38,680 nucleotides of DNA from Nanohaloarchaea archaeon B1-Br10_U2g1 (lineage in GTDB: Archaea > Nanohalarchaeota > Nanosalinia > Nanosalinales > Nanosalinaceae): assembly GCA_001563875.1 (NCBI GenBank), contig LKMN01000005.1, positions 1 through 38,680 on the forward strand, given 5' to 3'. The notes beneath the pieces are model-generated. The model saw only the letters and a program-made list of their open reading frames with translations, was not told where the DNA came from and searched no databases. Numbering within the stretch: position 1 is the stretch's first letter; each line of letters begins with the position of its first letter. This document shows positions 11,081-30,630 of the stretch, in pieces. The position numbers and the translations under genes were made by a program.

Positions 11081-11833
11081 GTGTTCAAAGCAGAATTAGA
11101 AGAAGTAGGACTTATACAGGACTCTATGAAAACAGTTTCAGACTTAATCAGTGAAGGACTTTTCCAGCTAACAGATGACGGGGTAAAACTGATAGCCGCA
11201 GATCCAGCAATGGTAGCACTAGTCGATTTCAAGATAGAGAAAGACGTATTTGAAAACTATGAACTAGATGAGGAAGACAAGGTAGGACTAAACCTTGAGA
11301 ATTTCTATTCAATCCTTAGAAGAGCTAACAGCGACGATACTATAACCTTTGAAGTAAAGGAGGACGAGTCCAAGTTCTACATAAAAATGGAGAACTCCTC
11401 AACCAGAAACTTCTCACTACCAATCCTCAATCTGTCAGAGGACGACATCCCAAGTACAGACCAGCTAGACTTCACAGTGACAGCTGAACTCGAGACATCA
11501 GTTCTAGAAAGCGCTATCAAAGACGCGCTTGTTGTAGGAGACTCAGTAACAATTTCTGCAGACTCAGAAACACTGAATATTGAAGCAGAAGGGGACCAGA
11601 GCAACGTAGACTTCAGTATAAGTGGAGACTCCCCGGGAGTAATGGAGCTCGAAGGAGGAGAAGCACGTTCAATGTTCTCACTAGACTACCTCAACAATAT
11701 GACGGGAGCTAAGAAGCTGAGTGACAACGTAGAACTCAAACTTGGTGAAGACTTCCCTATGAGGCTCAACTTCACAGTGCCGGAACAGGCAAGACTAAGT
11801 TTCGTGCTGGCGCCTAGAATAGAAGAGGATTAA
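11081..11833 (+). CDS. pcn: DNA polymerase sliding clamp (PCNA)
   Basis: Ring-forming processivity factor that tethers polymerases, FEN1, ligase and repair proteins to DNA. The 250-aa sequence has full family length with two PCNA folds: MFKAELEEVGLIQDSMKTV at the N-terminus, VKLIAADPAMVALVDF, and the C-terminal LNFTVPEQARLSFVLAPRI. The interdomain connector near 118-130 and the acidic surface fit the family. Start is GTG at 11081 with GAGGA directly before it. It shares an operon with the OB-fold protein. A partner with a candidate PIP motif (Nre) is encoded at 24.0-25.2 kb. Confidence 0.96.
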   Translation: MFKAELEEVGLIQDSMKTVSDLISEGLFQLTDDGVKLIAADPAMVALVDFKIEKDVFENYELDEEDKVGLNLENFYSILRRANSDDTITFEVKEDESKFYIKMENSSTRNFSLPILNLSEDDIPSTDQLDFTVTAELETSVLESAIKDALVVGDSVTISADSETLNIEAEGDQSNVDFSISGDSPGVMELEGGEARSMFSLDYLNNMTGAKKLSDNVELKLGEDFPMRLNFTVPEQARLSFVLAPRIEED

Positions 11834-12425: not shown

Positions 12426-13781
12426 ATGGGGAAAGAAGGGGAAAAACCTCAGGACTGGAAAATAAGACAGTACTACGAACAGCAGCCGGTTATAGACCGT
12501 GTAGTCAGAGTATCCGAGTACCGTGAGATAGCTGCCACATACGATTCAGGGTACGGCAAGAGACCTGACGCAATAAACTTTCCGGGAGACTTCGAACAGT
12601 TTGTTGAGAACGGTGCCGTAGCTTTCCACGCATCGGTCGAGAAATGGCGTAACCCGCTTCTTATAGACCAAGTCAACAACTTAGATACGTTAAGAGAGGG
12701 CTGGGATCTTATAATAGACATTGACTGCGACCACAGCTTCGAGCTCTCAAAAGAAACCGCTAAACTGGTTATAGAAGAGCTTGAACAGCACGGTATCGAA
12801 AATATAGGTGTAAAGTTTTCAGGTAACAGAGGTTTCCATATATCCGTTATGAGTACTGCTTTACCGGAAAATGTTGAAGGCAAACATATCTCGGAGCTCT
12901 ATCCAAGGCTTCCCAGAGGCATCGTGAACTATCTAAGACGGAACCTTGAGCAGGAGCTTACTACAAAGGTGGAGGAGTACGGTTATGGTGAGGAGATGCA
13001 GGTTGAGTCCGGAGAAGACCCTTTCCAAGTAACAGATATAGAGAACGACTGGGGAAGAAGACATCTATTCAGAATGCCTTACTCTCTTCATGACGGAAGC
13101 TGGAGAGTTTCCCTGCCTATAGAGAAACATGAAGTAATGGATTTCGAGAAAGAAGACGCTGAAATAGAGAACGTAGACTTCGAAACCGACTTCTTCAAAG
13201 AACCAGAGGAAGGCGAGGCCACTAACTTGGTGGTACAGGCACTGGATTACTTAGAGCAACAAGAGGAAGATAGGGAAGAGAAAAGAAAAGAAAGAGCAAA
13301 CAAAGACTACGAAAGACCGGAAGACGCGATTCCAGAGAAATACTTCCCACCTACGATAAAAAATATTCTAGAAGGTCTTGAAGACGGTAGGAAACGTGCA
13401 CTGTTCATACTTATCAACTTTTACAGGGCGGTAGGATACTCATGGAACGAGATAGAGACAAAGATATGGAGCTGGAATGAGAGAAACAAAGAAGCGCTTT
13501 CCGACTCCTATGTCAAAGGACAGCTGGACTGGCACAGAAGACGGGATGAAGACGTACCTCCTCCAAACTACAACTCAAACGGATACTACAAAGACATGCA
13601 GGTGTACGAGGGAGATCCATTGGAAGAGAAGGTTCCAAACCCTGTAAGTTACGCTTTTAGGAAGGCAAAGAAAAGAGAAGACAATAATGAAGACAAAGAC
13701 ATCTATGAGTGTCCTTACTGTGGTAAAGAGTACAAAACTGAAGGCTACTACAAAAAACATGTGCAGCAGTGTTTTGGTTGA
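12426..13781 (+). CDS. Single-chain DNA primase: PriS catalytic domain fused to a PriL-like domain and a zinc finger
   Basis: Makes RNA or DNA primers for replication. Residues 1-250 are PriS: catalytic DID (D98, D100), SGNRGFH (132-138) and the third motif around RMPYSLHDGSWR (216-227). A charged linker (255-300) leads to residues 305-415, which match the PriL C-terminal domain (YFPPTIKNIL, then NFYRAVGYSWNE, then NPVSYAF). None of the four cysteines that hold the PriL [4Fe-4S] cluster is present. The end (C429, C432, H445, C449) is a C-x2-C-x12-H-x3-C zinc finger. PriS-PriL fusion is known in some DPANN archaea; the missing cluster and added finger are my observation. TATA-like CTTTTAGCTTTT lies about 30 nt upstream. 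Confidence 0.9.
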   Translation: MGKEGEKPQDWKIRQYYEQQPVIDRVVRVSEYREIAATYDSGYGKRPDAINFPGDFEQFVENGAVAFHASVEKWRNPLLIDQVNNLDTLREGWDLIIDIDCDHSFELSKETAKLVIEELEQHGIENIGVKFSGNRGFHISVMSTALPENVEGKHISELYPRLPRGIVNYLRRNLEQELTTKVEEYGYGEEMQVESGEDPFQVTDIENDWGRRHLFRMPYSLHDGSWRVSLPIEKHEVMDFEKEDAEIENVDFETDFFKEPEEGEATNLVVQALDYLEQQEEDREEKRKERANKDYERPEDAIPEKYFPPTIKNILEGLEDGRKRALFILINFYRAVGYSWNEIETKIWSWNERNKEALSDSYVKGQLDWHRRRDEDVPPPNYNSNGYYKDMQVYEGDPLEEKVPNPVSYAFRKAKKREDNNEDKDIYECPYCGKEYKTEGYYKKHVQQCFG

Positions 13782-13830
13782 GGCTGCACAGCGGAGATAA
13801 AAAGGTTTGACTGCGACTGATTTGATAGAT

Positions 13831-14421
13831 ATGACGGAGGAAGCACTGACCTTCAGCGAACTCAGAAAGATACAGAAGAAAGAAAAAAGACAGGAAAGAC
13901 TATCGGAACTTGACAATGGATTTCTACTGAATGTAAGACGTTACCTTGAAATGAAAGAAGGATCAGCAACTCCAAGAGAGTATAAAAATGCCAAAAGAGT
14001 TTTTGATAAGATACTGGAGCTGAGAAGAGAGAAGATAGTGAAAAACGCGCGTATAGCTGTTAAATCTGATCTGAATTCTTCCAAGCTTAATCTTCTGCCG
14101 CGTGAGAGAGAGCTGTTCCTAGATATCAAAGAAGTCTTCCAAAAGTACTCTGATGAGATAGATGATATAGTAGAAGGTGAGAAAGAAGTTGAACCTATTG
14201 AAGAGCCAGAGACCGCAACTGAAGAAGAAGAGGAAGAAATCGAAGACGATCAAGACACAGAAGATGGTTATGAGCAGGTAAAAATAGTATCTAGCGTTCC
14301 TGAGTTCATGGGGACCGACCTAGAGTCGTATGGACCGTTTGAAGAAGGCGAAAAGGCGGAGATACCTCAAGACAACGCTGAAATACTTGTAAACCGAGGT
14401 AATGCAGAGGTGGTTGAGTAA
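13831..14421 (+). CDS. GINS complex subunit (Gins51/Gins15 type), 196 aa
   Basis: Subunit of the GINS complex that activates the MCM helicase and links it to primase and polymerase. The helical A domain begins FSELRKIQKKEKRQ and runs to about residue 115. An acidic linker (Glu/Asp-rich, about 116-150) precedes the C-terminal B domain (VKIVSSVPEFMGTDLESYG, then NAEILVNRGNAEVVE), the order found in Gins51. I chose the ATG at 13831 because TATA-like GATAAAAAGG (about 13796-13805) is at leaderless distance. A TTG at 13807 would add 8 residues. Primase is upstream, as in many archaea, and UMP kinase overlaps the stop. Confidence 0.85.
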   Translation: MTEEALTFSELRKIQKKEKRQERLSELDNGFLLNVRRYLEMKEGSATPREYKNAKRVFDKILELRREKIVKNARIAVKSDLNSSKLNLLPRERELFLDIKEVFQKYSDEIDDIVEGEKEVEPIEEPETATEEEEEEIEDDQDTEDGYEQVKIVSSVPEFMGTDLESYGPFEEGEKAEIPQDNAEILVNRGNAEVVE

Positions 14422-15094: not shown

Positions 15095-15397
15095 ATGGTC
15101 AAGATTCCAAAAGAACAGAGACGGTACTGTCCACACTGCGACGAACATACCGAGCAAACAGTTAAAGAACCTACAAACAGGAAGGACAGTCCTATGAGAA
15201 AGAAGTTCAGGAAGAGACAGAGAAAGATTGATCACGGCTACGGATCTTTCCCATACGAGAATCCGGCTATCAGAAGCAGAGGAGGTAAGAACCCGACTTC
15301 TGAGAAGAAAGACCTACAGTTCACATGTAAAGAGTGTGGAAAGAGCTACAAGCCGAAAAACCCTATCCGAACATCTAAACTAGAGATCGAAAGGTGA
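15095..15397 (+). CDS. rpl44e: Large ribosomal subunit protein eL42 (L44e)
   Basis: Structural protein near the E site of the 50S subunit. The 100-aa sequence has two zinc pairs, CPHC (about 12-15) and CKEC (about 80-83), separated by the basic RKKFRKRQRKIDHGYGSFP segment that is diagnostic of L44e. It is more basic than most proteins here, as is usual for ribosomal proteins even in halophiles. It is followed by S27e, as in most archaea. Confidence 0.97.
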   Translation: MVKIPKEQRRYCPHCDEHTEQTVKEPTNRKDSPMRKKFRKRQRKIDHGYGSFPYENPAIRSRGGKNPTSEKKDLQFTCKECGKSYKPKNPIRTSKLEIER

Positions 15398-15405
15398 ACA
15401 AACTA

Positions 15406-15579
15406 ATGGCAAGAGAGTTTCTAAAGGTAGAATGCGGAGAATGTGGGAACGAACAGAAGATATTCTCACATCCTTCAACAGACGTGAAATGTCTCGTATG
15501 TAACGAGGTAATCGCGAAGTCTACAGGCGGAAAAGCCGAACTACACGGCAACATTATCCAAGAACTAGAAGTTGAGTAA
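15406..15579 (+). CDS. rps27e: Small ribosomal subunit protein eS27 (S27e)
   Basis: Zinc-ribbon protein of the 30S subunit, 57 aa from the ATG at 15406. The four cysteines CGEC and CLVC are about 20 residues apart and are followed by the family end LHGNIIQELEVE. An in-frame GTG at 15394 would add 4 residues, but it lies inside the Shine-Dalgarno AGGTGA, whose spacing to the ATG is right. The preceding L44e stop codon is also in that motif. Confidence 0.95.
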   Translation: MAREFLKVECGECGNEQKIFSHPSTDVKCLVCNEVIAKSTGGKAELHGNIIQELEVE

Positions 15580-15620
15580 ATAGCTTTTTCTCAACCAACC
15601 GGTAGCAGGGAACAAAATTT

Positions 15621-15635
15621 CTTATACTTTTTAAG
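15621..15635 (+). promoter_or_regulatory. TATA-like element for the aIF2alpha operon
   Basis: CTTATACTTTTTAAG lies 23-37 nt before the aIF2alpha ATG at 15658. It probably drives aIF2alpha-Nop10-PAC2 and perhaps RpoK. Confidence 0.5.
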
Positions 15636-15657
15636 ATTAGCACTCCAACGATAGGCT

Positions 15658-16416
15658 ATGCGCTGGTACAAAGACCGTCCTGAAACCGGAGACATGGTTG
15701 TAGTAACGATAACTGATATAGACAAGAACTCTGCATACGCTGAACTCGATGAGTACGAAGACGTAAGCGGACTAATCCATATATCCGAGGTCTCCCGTTC
15801 ATGGCTACAAGACGTTAGAAAAGAACTTGATGAAGGAGAAAAGACCGTAGCACAAGTTATAGACTCTGAAGAAGAAGGAACAATAGATCTATCGCTGAAA
15901 CGTGTGAACGACAACCAGAAACGGGACGCAATGGCGCGGTGGAAAAAAGAACAGAAGGCCGAAGAGTTCGTCGAACAGCTGTCTGAAAGAACAGGTAAAG
16001 ACATGGAAGATCTATACGAAGAAGTAGTATTCCCATTACAGAAAGAACTAGGATCCTCCTTCCACGGATTTGAAATTGCTGTAGGCGAAGAAGAGAAACT
16101 AAAAGAAATACTTGAAGCAGACGTAGTAGAAGACATACAGGAGATAGCTAAAGACAACATCAACATGAAACAGGAGAAACTCGAAGGAGAGATAACACTC
16201 GAGTTCAGCCAAGGCGACGGCATAGAGAAGATAAAAGAGACGTTTTCAGAGGTTGGAGAAGGTGTAGAGGTAAACTATCTGTCAGCACCGAACTACTCGG
16301 TAACCGCCTGGGGAAGAAACTCCAAGCTAGCTAAGAAACGTATGGACAAGGCTATCAAAACTTTCCGTGAGAAAGCTGAGGAACTTGAAGGGAAGTTCGA
16401 GTTCTCAAGGGCCTGA
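15658..16416 (+). CDS. eif2a: Translation initiation factor aIF2 subunit alpha
   Basis: Part of the heterotrimer that brings initiator tRNA to the ribosome. The S1-type OB domain is at residues 1-85 (VVVTITDIDKNSAYAEL, then VSGLIHISEVSRSW, then GTIDLSLKRV). A helical middle domain and the C-terminal alpha-beta domain (about 175-250) that binds the gamma subunit follow. Residues VSRSW sit where eukaryotic eIF2alpha carries the regulatory Ser51 loop. Full length at 252 aa. The L44e-S27e-aIF2alpha-Nop10 order is a conserved archaeal block. Confidence 0.96.
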   Translation: MRWYKDRPETGDMVVVTITDIDKNSAYAELDEYEDVSGLIHISEVSRSWLQDVRKELDEGEKTVAQVIDSEEEGTIDLSLKRVNDNQKRDAMARWKKEQKAEEFVEQLSERTGKDMEDLYEEVVFPLQKELGSSFHGFEIAVGEEEKLKEILEADVVEDIQEIAKDNINMKQEKLEGEITLEFSQGDGIEKIKETFSEVGEGVEVNYLSAPNYSVTAWGRNSKLAKKRMDKAIKTFREKAEELEGKFEFSRA

Positions 16417-16422
16417 AATACA

Positions 16423-16566
16423 ATGATTAAAAAGTGTCCGAACTGCAATTCTTACACGTTGAAAGACACTCACTGTGAGGGACAGACAGTACAGGCTAGA
16501 CCGCCTAAGTTCTCATACCCTGACAAATACGGGAAATACCGTAGAAAAACTAAGAAAGGTGAATAA
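16423..16566 (+). CDS. nop10: H/ACA RNP protein Nop10
   Basis: Small component of the archaeal H/ACA particle that guides pseudouridylation by Cbf5. The 47-aa frame starts MIKKCPNCNSYTL and continues with PPKFSYPDKYGKYRR, which matches Nop10 at its usual length. One zinc knuckle CPNC is visible, and a third Cys follows (HCEG). It begins 6 nt after aIF2alpha and ends 4 nt before the PAC2 gene, so it is in the same operon. Confidence 0.95.
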   Translation: MIKKCPNCNSYTLKDTHCEGQTVQARPPKFSYPDKYGKYRRKTKKGE

Positions 16567-28102: not shown

Positions 28103-29503
28103 ATGTCCGAAGAAAATATTGAGAAGAACCAAGAACGTTTCGAACACAAAGTAGAGACTGAGAAGGCTTTTGACGCAGGTAAAGGCCTTACAGAGGAGAC
28201 GATAAAAGCTATATCGGAAGATAAAGAAGAGCCTGAATGGATGAAAGAAAGACGCTTGAAGGCTTTCAGACACTTCAAGAAAAGACCTATGCCTGGATGG
28301 GGTCCAGATCTTTCTGAACTAGACTTTGAAGAGATCAGTCACTATGTAAGACCTGATGCAGAACAGAGCGATGACTGGGAAGAAGTCCCTGAAGAGATTA
28401 AGGAGACCTTCGACAAACTGGGAATTCCGGAAGCCGAGAAAGAAGCTTTGAGCGGTGTAGGTGCACAGTTCGAATCACAGGTAGTCTACCAGAATATGAA
28501 AGAGGAGTGGGAAGAGAAAGGAGTAATCTTCTGCGACATGGATAAAGCGGTTCAAGAACATCCGGAGCTGGTTAAAGAATACTTTATGACCAAATGTGTT
28601 CCTCCACAGGACAACAAGTTCGCGGCCCTACACGGAGCTGTATGGTCAGGAGGATCGTTTGTATACGTGCCTGAAGGTGTAGAGGTCGAGATACCTGTAC
28701 AGGCATACTTCAGGATGAACCAGAAAGGTATGGGACAGTTCGAACACACACTTATTATAGCGGAGGAAGATAGCCAGGTCCATTATATCGAAGGATGTTC
28801 CGCGCCACAGTACACAAGATCTAATTTACACGCAGGCTGCGTTGAAGTATTTGTAAAGGATGACGCACACGTACAGTACTCAACAGTCCAGAACTGGAGT
28901 AAGAACACTTACAACCTGAACACGAAAAGAGCTAAAGTAGACTCAGAAGGTGTAATGGAATGGATCTCAGGAAGCATGGGTTCAAAAGTTACAATGCTTT
29001 ATCCTTCCTCTCACTTGAACGGAGAAGGCGCAAGAGCCAACCATATAACAATCGGGTTTGCCGGAGAAGGACAGAACATCGATACTGGGGCTAAAGTAGT
29101 TCACAATGCTCCAAACACTAAATCAACGATTGAGTCAAAATCTATATCTCAAGGAGACGGAAGAACTAACTACCGGGGACTAGTGAGGGTGCCGAAAGGA
29201 AGTCATGGAAGCAGTGTGTCTATCGAGTGTGATGCACTGATGTTCAGCAAGGAGGCTACAAGCGATACAGAACCATACATAGAGATTAAAGAGGACGACG
29301 TTGAAATGGCGCACGAGGCAACCGTTGGCCGTATAGGCGACGAGGAAATCCACTACTTGATGAGTCGTGGGATCGAAGAGGAAGAAGCAAAAGAGATGAT
29401 TGTAAGAGGATTCATCGAACCGATCGCGAAAGAACTGCCTCTAGAGTATGCAGTAGAGTTAAACCGGTTAATAGAGCTAGAGATGGAAGGAAGCCTAGGG
29501 TGA
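28103..29503 (+). CDS. sufB: SUF iron-sulfur assembly scaffold SufB
   Basis: Core scaffold subunit of the SufBC2D complex that assembles iron-sulfur clusters. The 466-aa sequence is full length: DNKFAALHGAVWSGGSFVYV, then LIIAEEDSQVHYIEGCSAP, then HAGCVEVFV, FAGEGQNIDTGAKVVHNAP and the C-terminal EATVGRIGDEEIHYLMSRGI. The N-terminal ~110 residues are the SufB-specific extension absent from SufD. The conserved Cys in HAGC lies on the scaffold face. It is first in the operon, and SufD follows with a short overlap region. Confidence 0.95.
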   Translation: MSEENIEKNQERFEHKVETEKAFDAGKGLTEETIKAISEDKEEPEWMKERRLKAFRHFKKRPMPGWGPDLSELDFEEISHYVRPDAEQSDDWEEVPEEIKETFDKLGIPEAEKEALSGVGAQFESQVVYQNMKEEWEEKGVIFCDMDKAVQEHPELVKEYFMTKCVPPQDNKFAALHGAVWSGGSFVYVPEGVEVEIPVQAYFRMNQKGMGQFEHTLIIAEEDSQVHYIEGCSAPQYTRSNLHAGCVEVFVKDDAHVQYSTVQNWSKNTYNLNTKRAKVDSEGVMEWISGSMGSKVTMLYPSSHLNGEGARANHITIGFAGEGQNIDTGAKVVHNAPNTKSTIESKSISQGDGRTNYRGLVRVPKGSHGSSVSIECDALMFSKEATSDTEPYIEIKEDDVEMAHEATVGRIGDEEIHYLMSRGIEEEEAKEMIVRGFIEPIAKELPLEYAVELNRLIELEMEGSLG

Positions 29504-29511
29504 AACAAAAA

Positions 29512-30630
29512 ATGCAGATACACAAACTATACGAAGAGAAAGAAGAGTTCCAAGAACTCAGAGAAAGATCAGCAGAACTGTACAGCAAACTTGAGATGCC
29601 TGAAAGCATAAGAACACCAGGAAGGACATGGACAAGATATCCTGACATAGAAGACAAACTAGGCGATATAGAAGACTTCGAACCAGAGATAGATATAGAA
29701 GGAGAAGCAGAAGTATACACAGGATCTGAAGCAGCGGAAGAAGCAGGTAAAAAACTACTCGACTCCATTAAACCAGGAGAAAACAAGCTGAACGCTCTTC
29801 ACGCAATAAAGATTAACTCTGTAGTACTCATCAGAGTTAAGGGAGAAGCTGATATATCCGTAAAATACGAGACAGATTCAAACCTTTTCTCACATCTAGT
29901 GATAGAAACAGAAGATAGCACAGACCTTAAAATCACTGAAGATTTCAGAGGGGAAGCAGACGTTCAAACAAGTTTCACTGAGATCTACACAGGAAACAAC
30001 TCTCACGTAGACTACGGCGCAGTAGAGTCATTGGATGCTGAACTAAGCTACAGTCATAGAAAAGCTGTTGTGGGGAAAGACTCGACAATGAAATGGCTTA
30101 ACGGCCAGTTCGAATCAGAGCTGAACCGTACAAAGATTGAGACTGTCTTGAAAGGAGACAACTCCGAGACAGAGAATATAGGTGTCTGGTATCCTGTAAA
30201 CAACCAGCATTTCGATATATCGCTCCACGTATTCCATATAGGCCACAACACGAAATGTGATATGGACTCTCGAGCAGTAGTAGACGATAGATCCCGTTCA
30301 CTCTATGAAGGGTTACAGAAGGTTGAGGAATCTGCCGAAGACACCAAAAGCTTCCAAGATCAGGAGTCACTGCTTCTATCCGACAATGCAGAAGCAGACG
30401 CCTCGCCAAAACTGATGATCGAGAACCCTGATGTAGAGGCAAGCCACGCAGCAGCTGCAGGAAAGATAGCTGAAGAGAAACAGCACTACCTAGAGACAAG
30501 AGGACTTGACTCTGAAAAAAGCAGGAGACTGGTCGTAAAAGGCTACTTCGAACCGGTTATGCAGAAAATCGGTCTACCAGATCTAAAACAGAGTATAAGA
30601 CAGGAAGTAGATAAGAAGCTGAACCGGTAG
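29512..30630 (+). CDS. sufD: SUF scaffold partner SufD
   Basis: Second beta-helix scaffold that pairs with SufB in SufBC2D. The 372-aa protein has the expected SufD length, the beta-helix core (around 130-300), and the C-terminal EASHAAAAGKIAEEKQHYLE where the conserved His and Tyr of SufD lie. I start at ATG 29512, preceded by the Shine-Dalgarno GGGTGA spanning the sufB stop. A GTG at 29500 would add 4 residues and lies inside that motif. Codon use and acidity match SufB. Confidence 0.93.
   Translation: MQIHKLYEEKEEFQELRERSAELYSKLEMPESIRTPGRTWTRYPDIEDKLGDIEDFEPEIDIEGEAEVYTGSEAAEEAGKKLLDSIKPGENKLNALHAIKINSVVLIRVKGEADISVKYETDSNLFSHLVIETEDSTDLKITEDFRGEADVQTSFTEIYTGNNSHVDYGAVESLDAELSYSHRKAVVGKDSTMKWLNGQFESELNRTKIETVLKGDNSETENIGVWYPVNNQHFDISLHVFHIGHNTKCDMDSRAVVDDRSRSLYEGLQKVEESAEDTKSFQDQESLLLSDNAEADASPKLMIENPDVEASHAAAAGKIAEEKQHYLETRGLDSEKSRRLVVKGYFEPVMQKIGLPDLKQSIRQEVDKKLNR

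Follow-up and report, generated by a model that had tools for sequence, protein, structure and literature searches.

A primase in which PriS and the C-terminal region of PriL are fused has long been known from Nanoarchaeum equitans (Berthon 2008, PMC2643942), and the fused enzyme has been described as a trait of the Undinarchaeota and of DPANN cluster 2 (Dombrowski 2020, PMC7414124). The C-terminal domain (CTD) of the N. equitans protein, PriX (the third primase subunit of the Sulfolobales, PF18689) and the CTD of pRN1 are structural orthologues (PMC11009956). In Sulfolobus solfataricus PriX, D70 and R72-K73-R74 hold the initiating nucleotide by its triphosphate; replacement of D70, R72 or R74 by Ala abolished or severely impaired initiation and spared elongation, and a PriX-PriL chimera without Fe-S domain primed normally, making the PriL Fe-S domain dispensable in Sulfolobus (Holzer 2017, PMC5700102). 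Whether the primase Fe-S cluster acts as a redox switch in DNA handling or merely braces the structure has been debated for years.

The primase described here resembles the fusion primases of DPANN cluster 2 and the Undinarchaeota (type: N. equitans NEQ395) in that it is a single chain, with PriS followed by the PriL C-terminal region, and the sole primase of its genome (PMC2643942, PMC7414124), but it lacks the four Cys found in 44 of the 55 that were scored and carries an additional C2HC finger. With PriX it appears to share a cluster-free helix bundle and a D-G-R-K-R initiating-NTP motif; PriX, however, is a separate subunit without the PPN..NPVSY tail, and no PF18689 match was found in the genome studied. 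Compared with the Fe-S domain of canonical archaeal and eukaryotic PriL (PF04104), the order of the tail (PP[NS]-x ... N/H-P-[VL]-x-Y) is kept, whereas the cluster ligands and the PriL N-terminal domain are missing and DGRKR stands in place of G.N..H..RF. A prim-pol domain joined to a PriL-CTD-like bundle is also seen in the PriCT-1/pRN1 helix-bundle primases and in PolpTN2 (PMC5862659, PMC3973330), but these are enzymes of plasmids and mobile elements, of which PolpTN2 has four Cys, whereas the present gene is chromosomal and lies in a replication gene cluster. The fusion, the PriX precedent and the equivalence of the helix bundles were thus already known. We found no report that nanohaloarchaea have lost the cluster ligands, or that fused primases have lost them stepwise, in a literature search that did not extend to the most relevant paper (PMC10250227).

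Gene neighbourhood and domain organisation

The window (the whole stretch of 38,680 nucleotides that was analysed) is one contig of a nanohaloarchaeal genome of 709,831 bases that is 96.75% complete. The named relatives with 64-78% identity over nearly the full length belong to the Nanohaloarchaea. The gene order is PCNA, MsrB, primase, GINS15, a gene of the amino-acid-kinase family and then L44e, S27e, aIF2-alpha and Nop10, with the following coordinates:

11081..11833, + strand: PCNA (PF00705/PF02747)
12426..13781, + strand: fused PriS-PriL(CTD) primase of 451 aa, most likely replicative (ORF call; Pfam; sole AEP and PriL match in its genome)
13807..14421, + strand: GINS15-type (Gins51) replication protein (PF22090, E 1.5e-15)
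15095..16566, + strand: L44e, S27e, aIF2-alpha and Nop10, the conserved LSIN cluster beside PCNA-primase-GINS (neighbourhood; PMC2643942)

The combination of PCNA-PriS-Gins15 and the LSIN genes was described before as a conserved cluster (PMC2643942), and because of its location inside this cluster the gene most likely encodes a replicative primase and not a mobile-element enzyme. Searches with PF01896, PF04104 and PF18689 yielded no second PriS, PriL or PriX gene in the genome (96.75% complete), including the separate PriL gene that a preliminary description of the locus had considered.

That description had proposed a fusion of PriS and PriL-like parts, which was confirmed: PF01896 matched residues 98-232 with 27.9 bits (cut-off 26.8), and the PriL-CTD was recognised by alignment, the PF04104 match (residues 269-343, 17.5 bits) being under the curated cut-off of 22.4. 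The weak alignment to the NCBIfam PriL model PRK02249 was confined to model positions 204-342 of 358, i.e. the C-terminal domain. Since the CTD of canonical archaeal PriL begins at residue 223 or later, the fusion consists of PriS and the PriL-CTD connected via a short linker, the PriL N-terminal domain being absent. The parts are:

12462..13193, + strand: PriS-like catalytic domain, about residues 13-256 (PF01896, 27.9 bits; TIGR00335, residues 13-177)
12717..12725, + strand: catalytic motif I, D98-I-D100 (invariant in alignment A1)
12819..12839, + strand: catalytic motif II, S132-G-N-R-G-F-H138 (S, G, R, G, F and H invariant in alignment A1)
13035..13079, + strand: motif III, D204-I-E...R-H-L-F-R-M-P218 (alignment A1; aligns with the motif III stretch of human PriS)
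13194..13316, + strand: short linker of about 40 residues where the PriL N-terminal domain would be (PRK02249 match 204-342 of 358)
13317..13688, + strand: PriL-CTD/helix-bundle domain, residues 298-421 (alignments; four helices in the model)

The catalytic motifs DxD, SGxRGxH and motif III are all present. In one relative (L023 in genome G001) an Asn (VTNPENNW) replaces the motif III Asp of most relatives in the phylum, and the Glu two residues further on is invariant in alignment A1. Canonical PriS has a zinc knuckle located between motifs I and II. No such knuckle was observed in any of the fused primases compared (L163 is unreadable there), and the fused primases thus seem to lack this metal site too.

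Structure prediction, which had been suggested for the C-terminal part, gave models of low confidence. The AlphaFold input was a shallow alignment of 12 close relatives, and the mean pLDDT was 57 for the whole chain and 59 for residues 257-451; the models show four helices in the CTD and a finger of beta-beta-alpha form, with a pLDDT below 50 in the old cluster region (residues ~375-425). A Foldseek search with the CTD model returned chance-level E-values, with PriX (4wyh, E 1.9) and zinc fingers among the top matches, and the whole-chain model had prim-pol domains on top, no fold match reaching an E-value of 0.001. Because of the low model confidence and the absence of a match at that level the fold assignment of the CTD rests on sequence; the models and the Foldseek results are consistent with the CTD and PriS assignments and do not prove them. 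PF08708 gave a weak match in the CTDs of 7 of the 39 relatives.

Several other arrangements were observed among related primases. An intein (PF14890, LAGLIDADG) directly precedes the catalytic DxD of a fused primase in G231 (L153:704-3607). In G042 (L163) one ORF contains two tandem copies of the PriL-CTD, neither of them with a complete Cys set, and a second ORF, overlapping its start, encodes the PriS part. In G020 (L022, matching L040, Nanosalina J07AB43) what looks like a frameshift divides the primase into ORFs of 308 and 183 aa; this could be an error of the assembly. In L146-L150 and L154 (families f78, f104 and f93) the linker between PriS and CTD measures 103-167 residues versus ~60 elsewhere over the same aligned span. 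Three nanohaloarchaeal genomes encode a second protein of the prim-pol type (260-284 aa) that has paired Cys motifs and matches PriS weakly (L165:1143-1982 in G002, L166:1157-1936 in G008 and L167:1289-2140 in G004). A PF04104 tail match in G003 (C4:13833-14003) was ruled out as PriL, as the protein is a coiled coil that carries a C2H2 finger.

Distribution and loss of the cluster cysteines

The only cysteines in the primase ORF are C101, C429, C432 and C449, so that the earlier observation that no Cys occurs between residues 102 and 428 holds. Where relatives read FPPC / PPNC / (V)C..D / C..IKNP, the window primase reads FPPT310 / PPNY382 / VY394 / E400..VPNPVSY. The solved PriL 9f26_B aligns with the fused primases across FPPC, PPNC and LCTPDKHC..VRNP, which ties the scored positions to the cluster ligands and, together with the relatives, places these in the window primase at:

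13353..13355, + strand: T310, lost ligand 1 (Cys of FPPC in relatives; alignment)
13569..13571, + strand: Y382, lost ligand 2 (Cys of PPNC in relatives; alignment)
13605..13607, + strand: Y394, lost ligand 3 (Cys in relatives; alignment)
13623..13625, + strand: E400, lost ligand 4 (Cys of C..IKNP in relatives; alignment)

The tail motifs PPN (379-381), GYYxD (386-390) and NPV (405-407) are kept (alignment A1), indicating that the CTD tail is still conserved after the loss of the ligands.

Our survey took in the fused primases of 28 genomes belonging to the phylum of the window and of 80 other archaeal genomes, and the four Cys positions were read in each. Outside the phylum, all four were kept in 44 of 55 fused primases (typically as FPPC ... 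PPNC ... VC.PD..C..IKNP), one to three in nine and none in two, and inside it 24 of 25 were without any cluster Cys (families f1 with 18 sequences, f3, f4 with 4, and f5). Given that the Cys are in register in the 44 and entirely absent in the 24, this pattern is not due to chance. The one family of the phylum with all four Cys is f2 (L023); its contig also encodes PCNA, GINS and aIF2-alpha (L168) and its primase falls inside the nanohaloarchaeal clade (support 100/98), making it a real member of the phylum. Since f2 and the 44 others keep all four Cys, their absence is, as read from the alignments, a derived loss that is repeated among fused primases, in agreement with the preliminary description, which had claimed a loss of the PriL cluster Cys. 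Three-Cys fused primases were observed as well, in f39 (L129 and L130, with Met-His near the fourth ligand) and in f33 (L136-L138, with a deletion at the third).

In a tree of fused primases only (without canonical primases), from which the Cys segments had been excluded, the nanohaloarchaeal primases formed a clade inside the fused set (100/98). On this tree, a switch between "at most one Cys" and "more" is needed four times; one single cluster loss in the phylum was not rejected (p 0.40). The f23 family forms a series with four (L140, L142, L145), two (L141, L143, L144) and one Cys (L151). With G162 (f59), L151 (f23) and G042 (f20, outside the tree) counted, the minimum number of complete or near-complete losses of the Cys comes to three to four.

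A metal (Zn, Fe or Mg) might still be held at the old site by other ligands, e.g. D390, E395, E400, H370 or Y394: D390 is invariant in alignment A1, conserved residues persist around the lost ligands and the f39 relatives have a His close to their three Cys. However, the residues now at the ligand positions (T/S/P, Y/F/W, Y/I/V and E) vary between f1, f3 and f4, which have no replacement set in common, and we regard a retained metal as unlikely; the CTD is presumably free of iron.

Genome reduction in a symbiont might also have removed Fe-S assembly from the cell, with the Cys lost as a consequence; f3, f4, G162 and G042 indeed have neither SufB/SufD matches nor the Cys. The window, however, encodes both assembly proteins:

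28709..30543, + strand: SufB and SufD, Fe-S assembly genes, at 28709-29413 and 29875-30543 (PF01458, E 4.2e-88 and 1.1e-58)

All f1 and f5 genomes that were searched have this pair as well and no primase Cys, whereas a profile search gave no SufB/SufD match in the Cys-keeping f2 genome, and many other DPANN keep four Cys without SufB/SufD. This distribution rules out loss of Fe-S assembly as the cause of the Cys loss, a scenario that we consider the most improbable of those weighed here.

The cluster may also have been given up as an adaptation to oxygen-rich brine, which would be a cause compatible with a cluster-free replicative primase rather than a different mechanism. Several named relatives come from brines, judging by their titles, and work on Asgard archaea suggests that shielding of the cluster protects against oxygen (PMC12770985). 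Haloferax, likewise an oxic halophile, nevertheless has a PriL over the PF04104 cut-off (a whole-profile score, not a reading of the Cys), and redox protection as the cause seems doubtful to us.

The C-terminal finger

The preliminary description had further noted a C-terminal C-x2-C-x12-H-x3-C finger and had seen in it a possible replacement for the lost metal site. The finger itself is clearly present:

13710..13772, + strand: C2HC finger, C429-x2-C-x12-H-x3-C449 (Pfam; beta-beta-alpha in the model, pLDDT ~71)

The zf-C2H2 match (residues 427-447) reached 20.1 bits and an E-value of 0.0008, versus a curated cut-off of 25.2. The spacing is the same in 16 of the 18 f1 rows and x13 in L067, so that the finger is conserved in 17 of the 18 members aligned, the last being cut by the contig end. 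It is also present in f5 (x13) and f2 (x12) and absent in f3 and f4.

That the finger would substitute for the Fe-S cluster, structurally or as an element contacting DNA, agrees with f1 and f5, which have the finger and no cluster Cys, and with its conservation, which shows that it is under selection. However, finger and Cys vary independently: finger and four Cys occur together in f2 (L023) and, in a C2H2 form, in L117 (f112) and L122 (f71), the latter two in a distant clade, and f3, f4, G162 and G042, which are without the Cys, have no finger either. Moreover, a single clade of finger-bearing nanohaloarchaea was rejected (AU p 0.008), indicating that finger and Cys have separate histories; probably the finger either arose early in the phylum and disappeared twice, or it was acquired on more than one occasion. 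In the chain it lies apart from the cluster site, behind an acidic linker that is variable (alignment A1). Its distribution thus rules out the finger as a cluster substitute, and we give that function very little credence; a contact with nucleic acid or with a replisome protein is more likely.

The initiation motif and the role of the cluster

Where the second helix of the bundle begins, canonical archaeal PriL has G.N..H..RF and the fused primases have D-G-[RK]-x-R, of which the D, the G and the last R were invariant in all 39 aligned CTDs, with or without Cys. In the alignment, the PriX genes identified in three of the genomes have GLQDGRKRF, GLPDCRKRF and GVPDGRSRL at this position. The corresponding feature of the window is:

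13383..13397, + strand: putative PriX-type initiating-NTP motif, D320-G-R-K-R324 (alignment with CTDs and PriX)

By analogy with PriX we infer that D320-R324 may be the initiation site. The PriX profile PF18689 itself had no match in the genome, the window primase not reaching the curated cut-off.

A further PriX-related arrangement was observed in L176-L182 (G163, G055, G223, G033, G240, G257 and G153) and further f11 genomes, where PriL-like ORFs of 304-352 aa have a C-terminal PriX domain (PF18689 over the cut-off, D-x-R-x-R) and not the Fe-S domain; PF04104 gave no match in these genomes. The f11 ORFs resemble a natural form of the engineered PriL-PriX chimera (PMC5700102).

The window gene is in our view quite probably a one-chain replicative primase in which a PriX-type helix bundle starts the primers and no cluster is involved. 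In this chromosomal enzyme, in which a short linker connects PriS with the PriL-CTD and the PriL N-terminal domain is missing, the helix bundle of the CTD would grip the triphosphate of the initiating NTP via D320-G-R-K-R324, as in PriX, and swing to PriS for formation of the first dinucleotide, elongation being carried out by the PriS part. The ancestral [4Fe-4S] of the CTD would have been lost within the phylum, having served as a scaffold of the CTD tail that is neither catalytic nor an essential redox switch, and the C2HC finger would have been acquired independently of this loss.

More generally, [4Fe-4S] appears to have been lost repeatedly in chromosomal replicative primases, once or twice in nanohaloarchaea, in G162 (f59) and G042 (f20), and stepwise (4, 2 and 1 Cys) in f23, with the initiating-NTP residues kept, and separately a PriX domain stands in place of the PriL Fe-S domain in small-genome archaea (f11, f30 and f75). 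On balance we favour the view that the cluster is a dispensable scaffold across archaeal primases. That the Cys are gone while the predicted nucleotide-gripping site stays argues that the cluster may be dispensable for starting DNA copies.

The preliminary description had suggested a bearing on the proposed role of the cluster in primer hand-off. For redox or hand-off models the finding is confirmatory and not the first of its kind, as cluster-free priming was already shown for Sulfolobus PriX (Holzer 2017, PMC5700102), although that system relies on a third subunit. The present primase consists of one chain and is the only one found in its genome; almost the whole phylum is without the ligands, which are kept in a sister family and partly lost in other lineages. 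This natural series of small enzymes with 0, 1, 2, 3 or 4 ligands offers a direct test of the redox-switch model.
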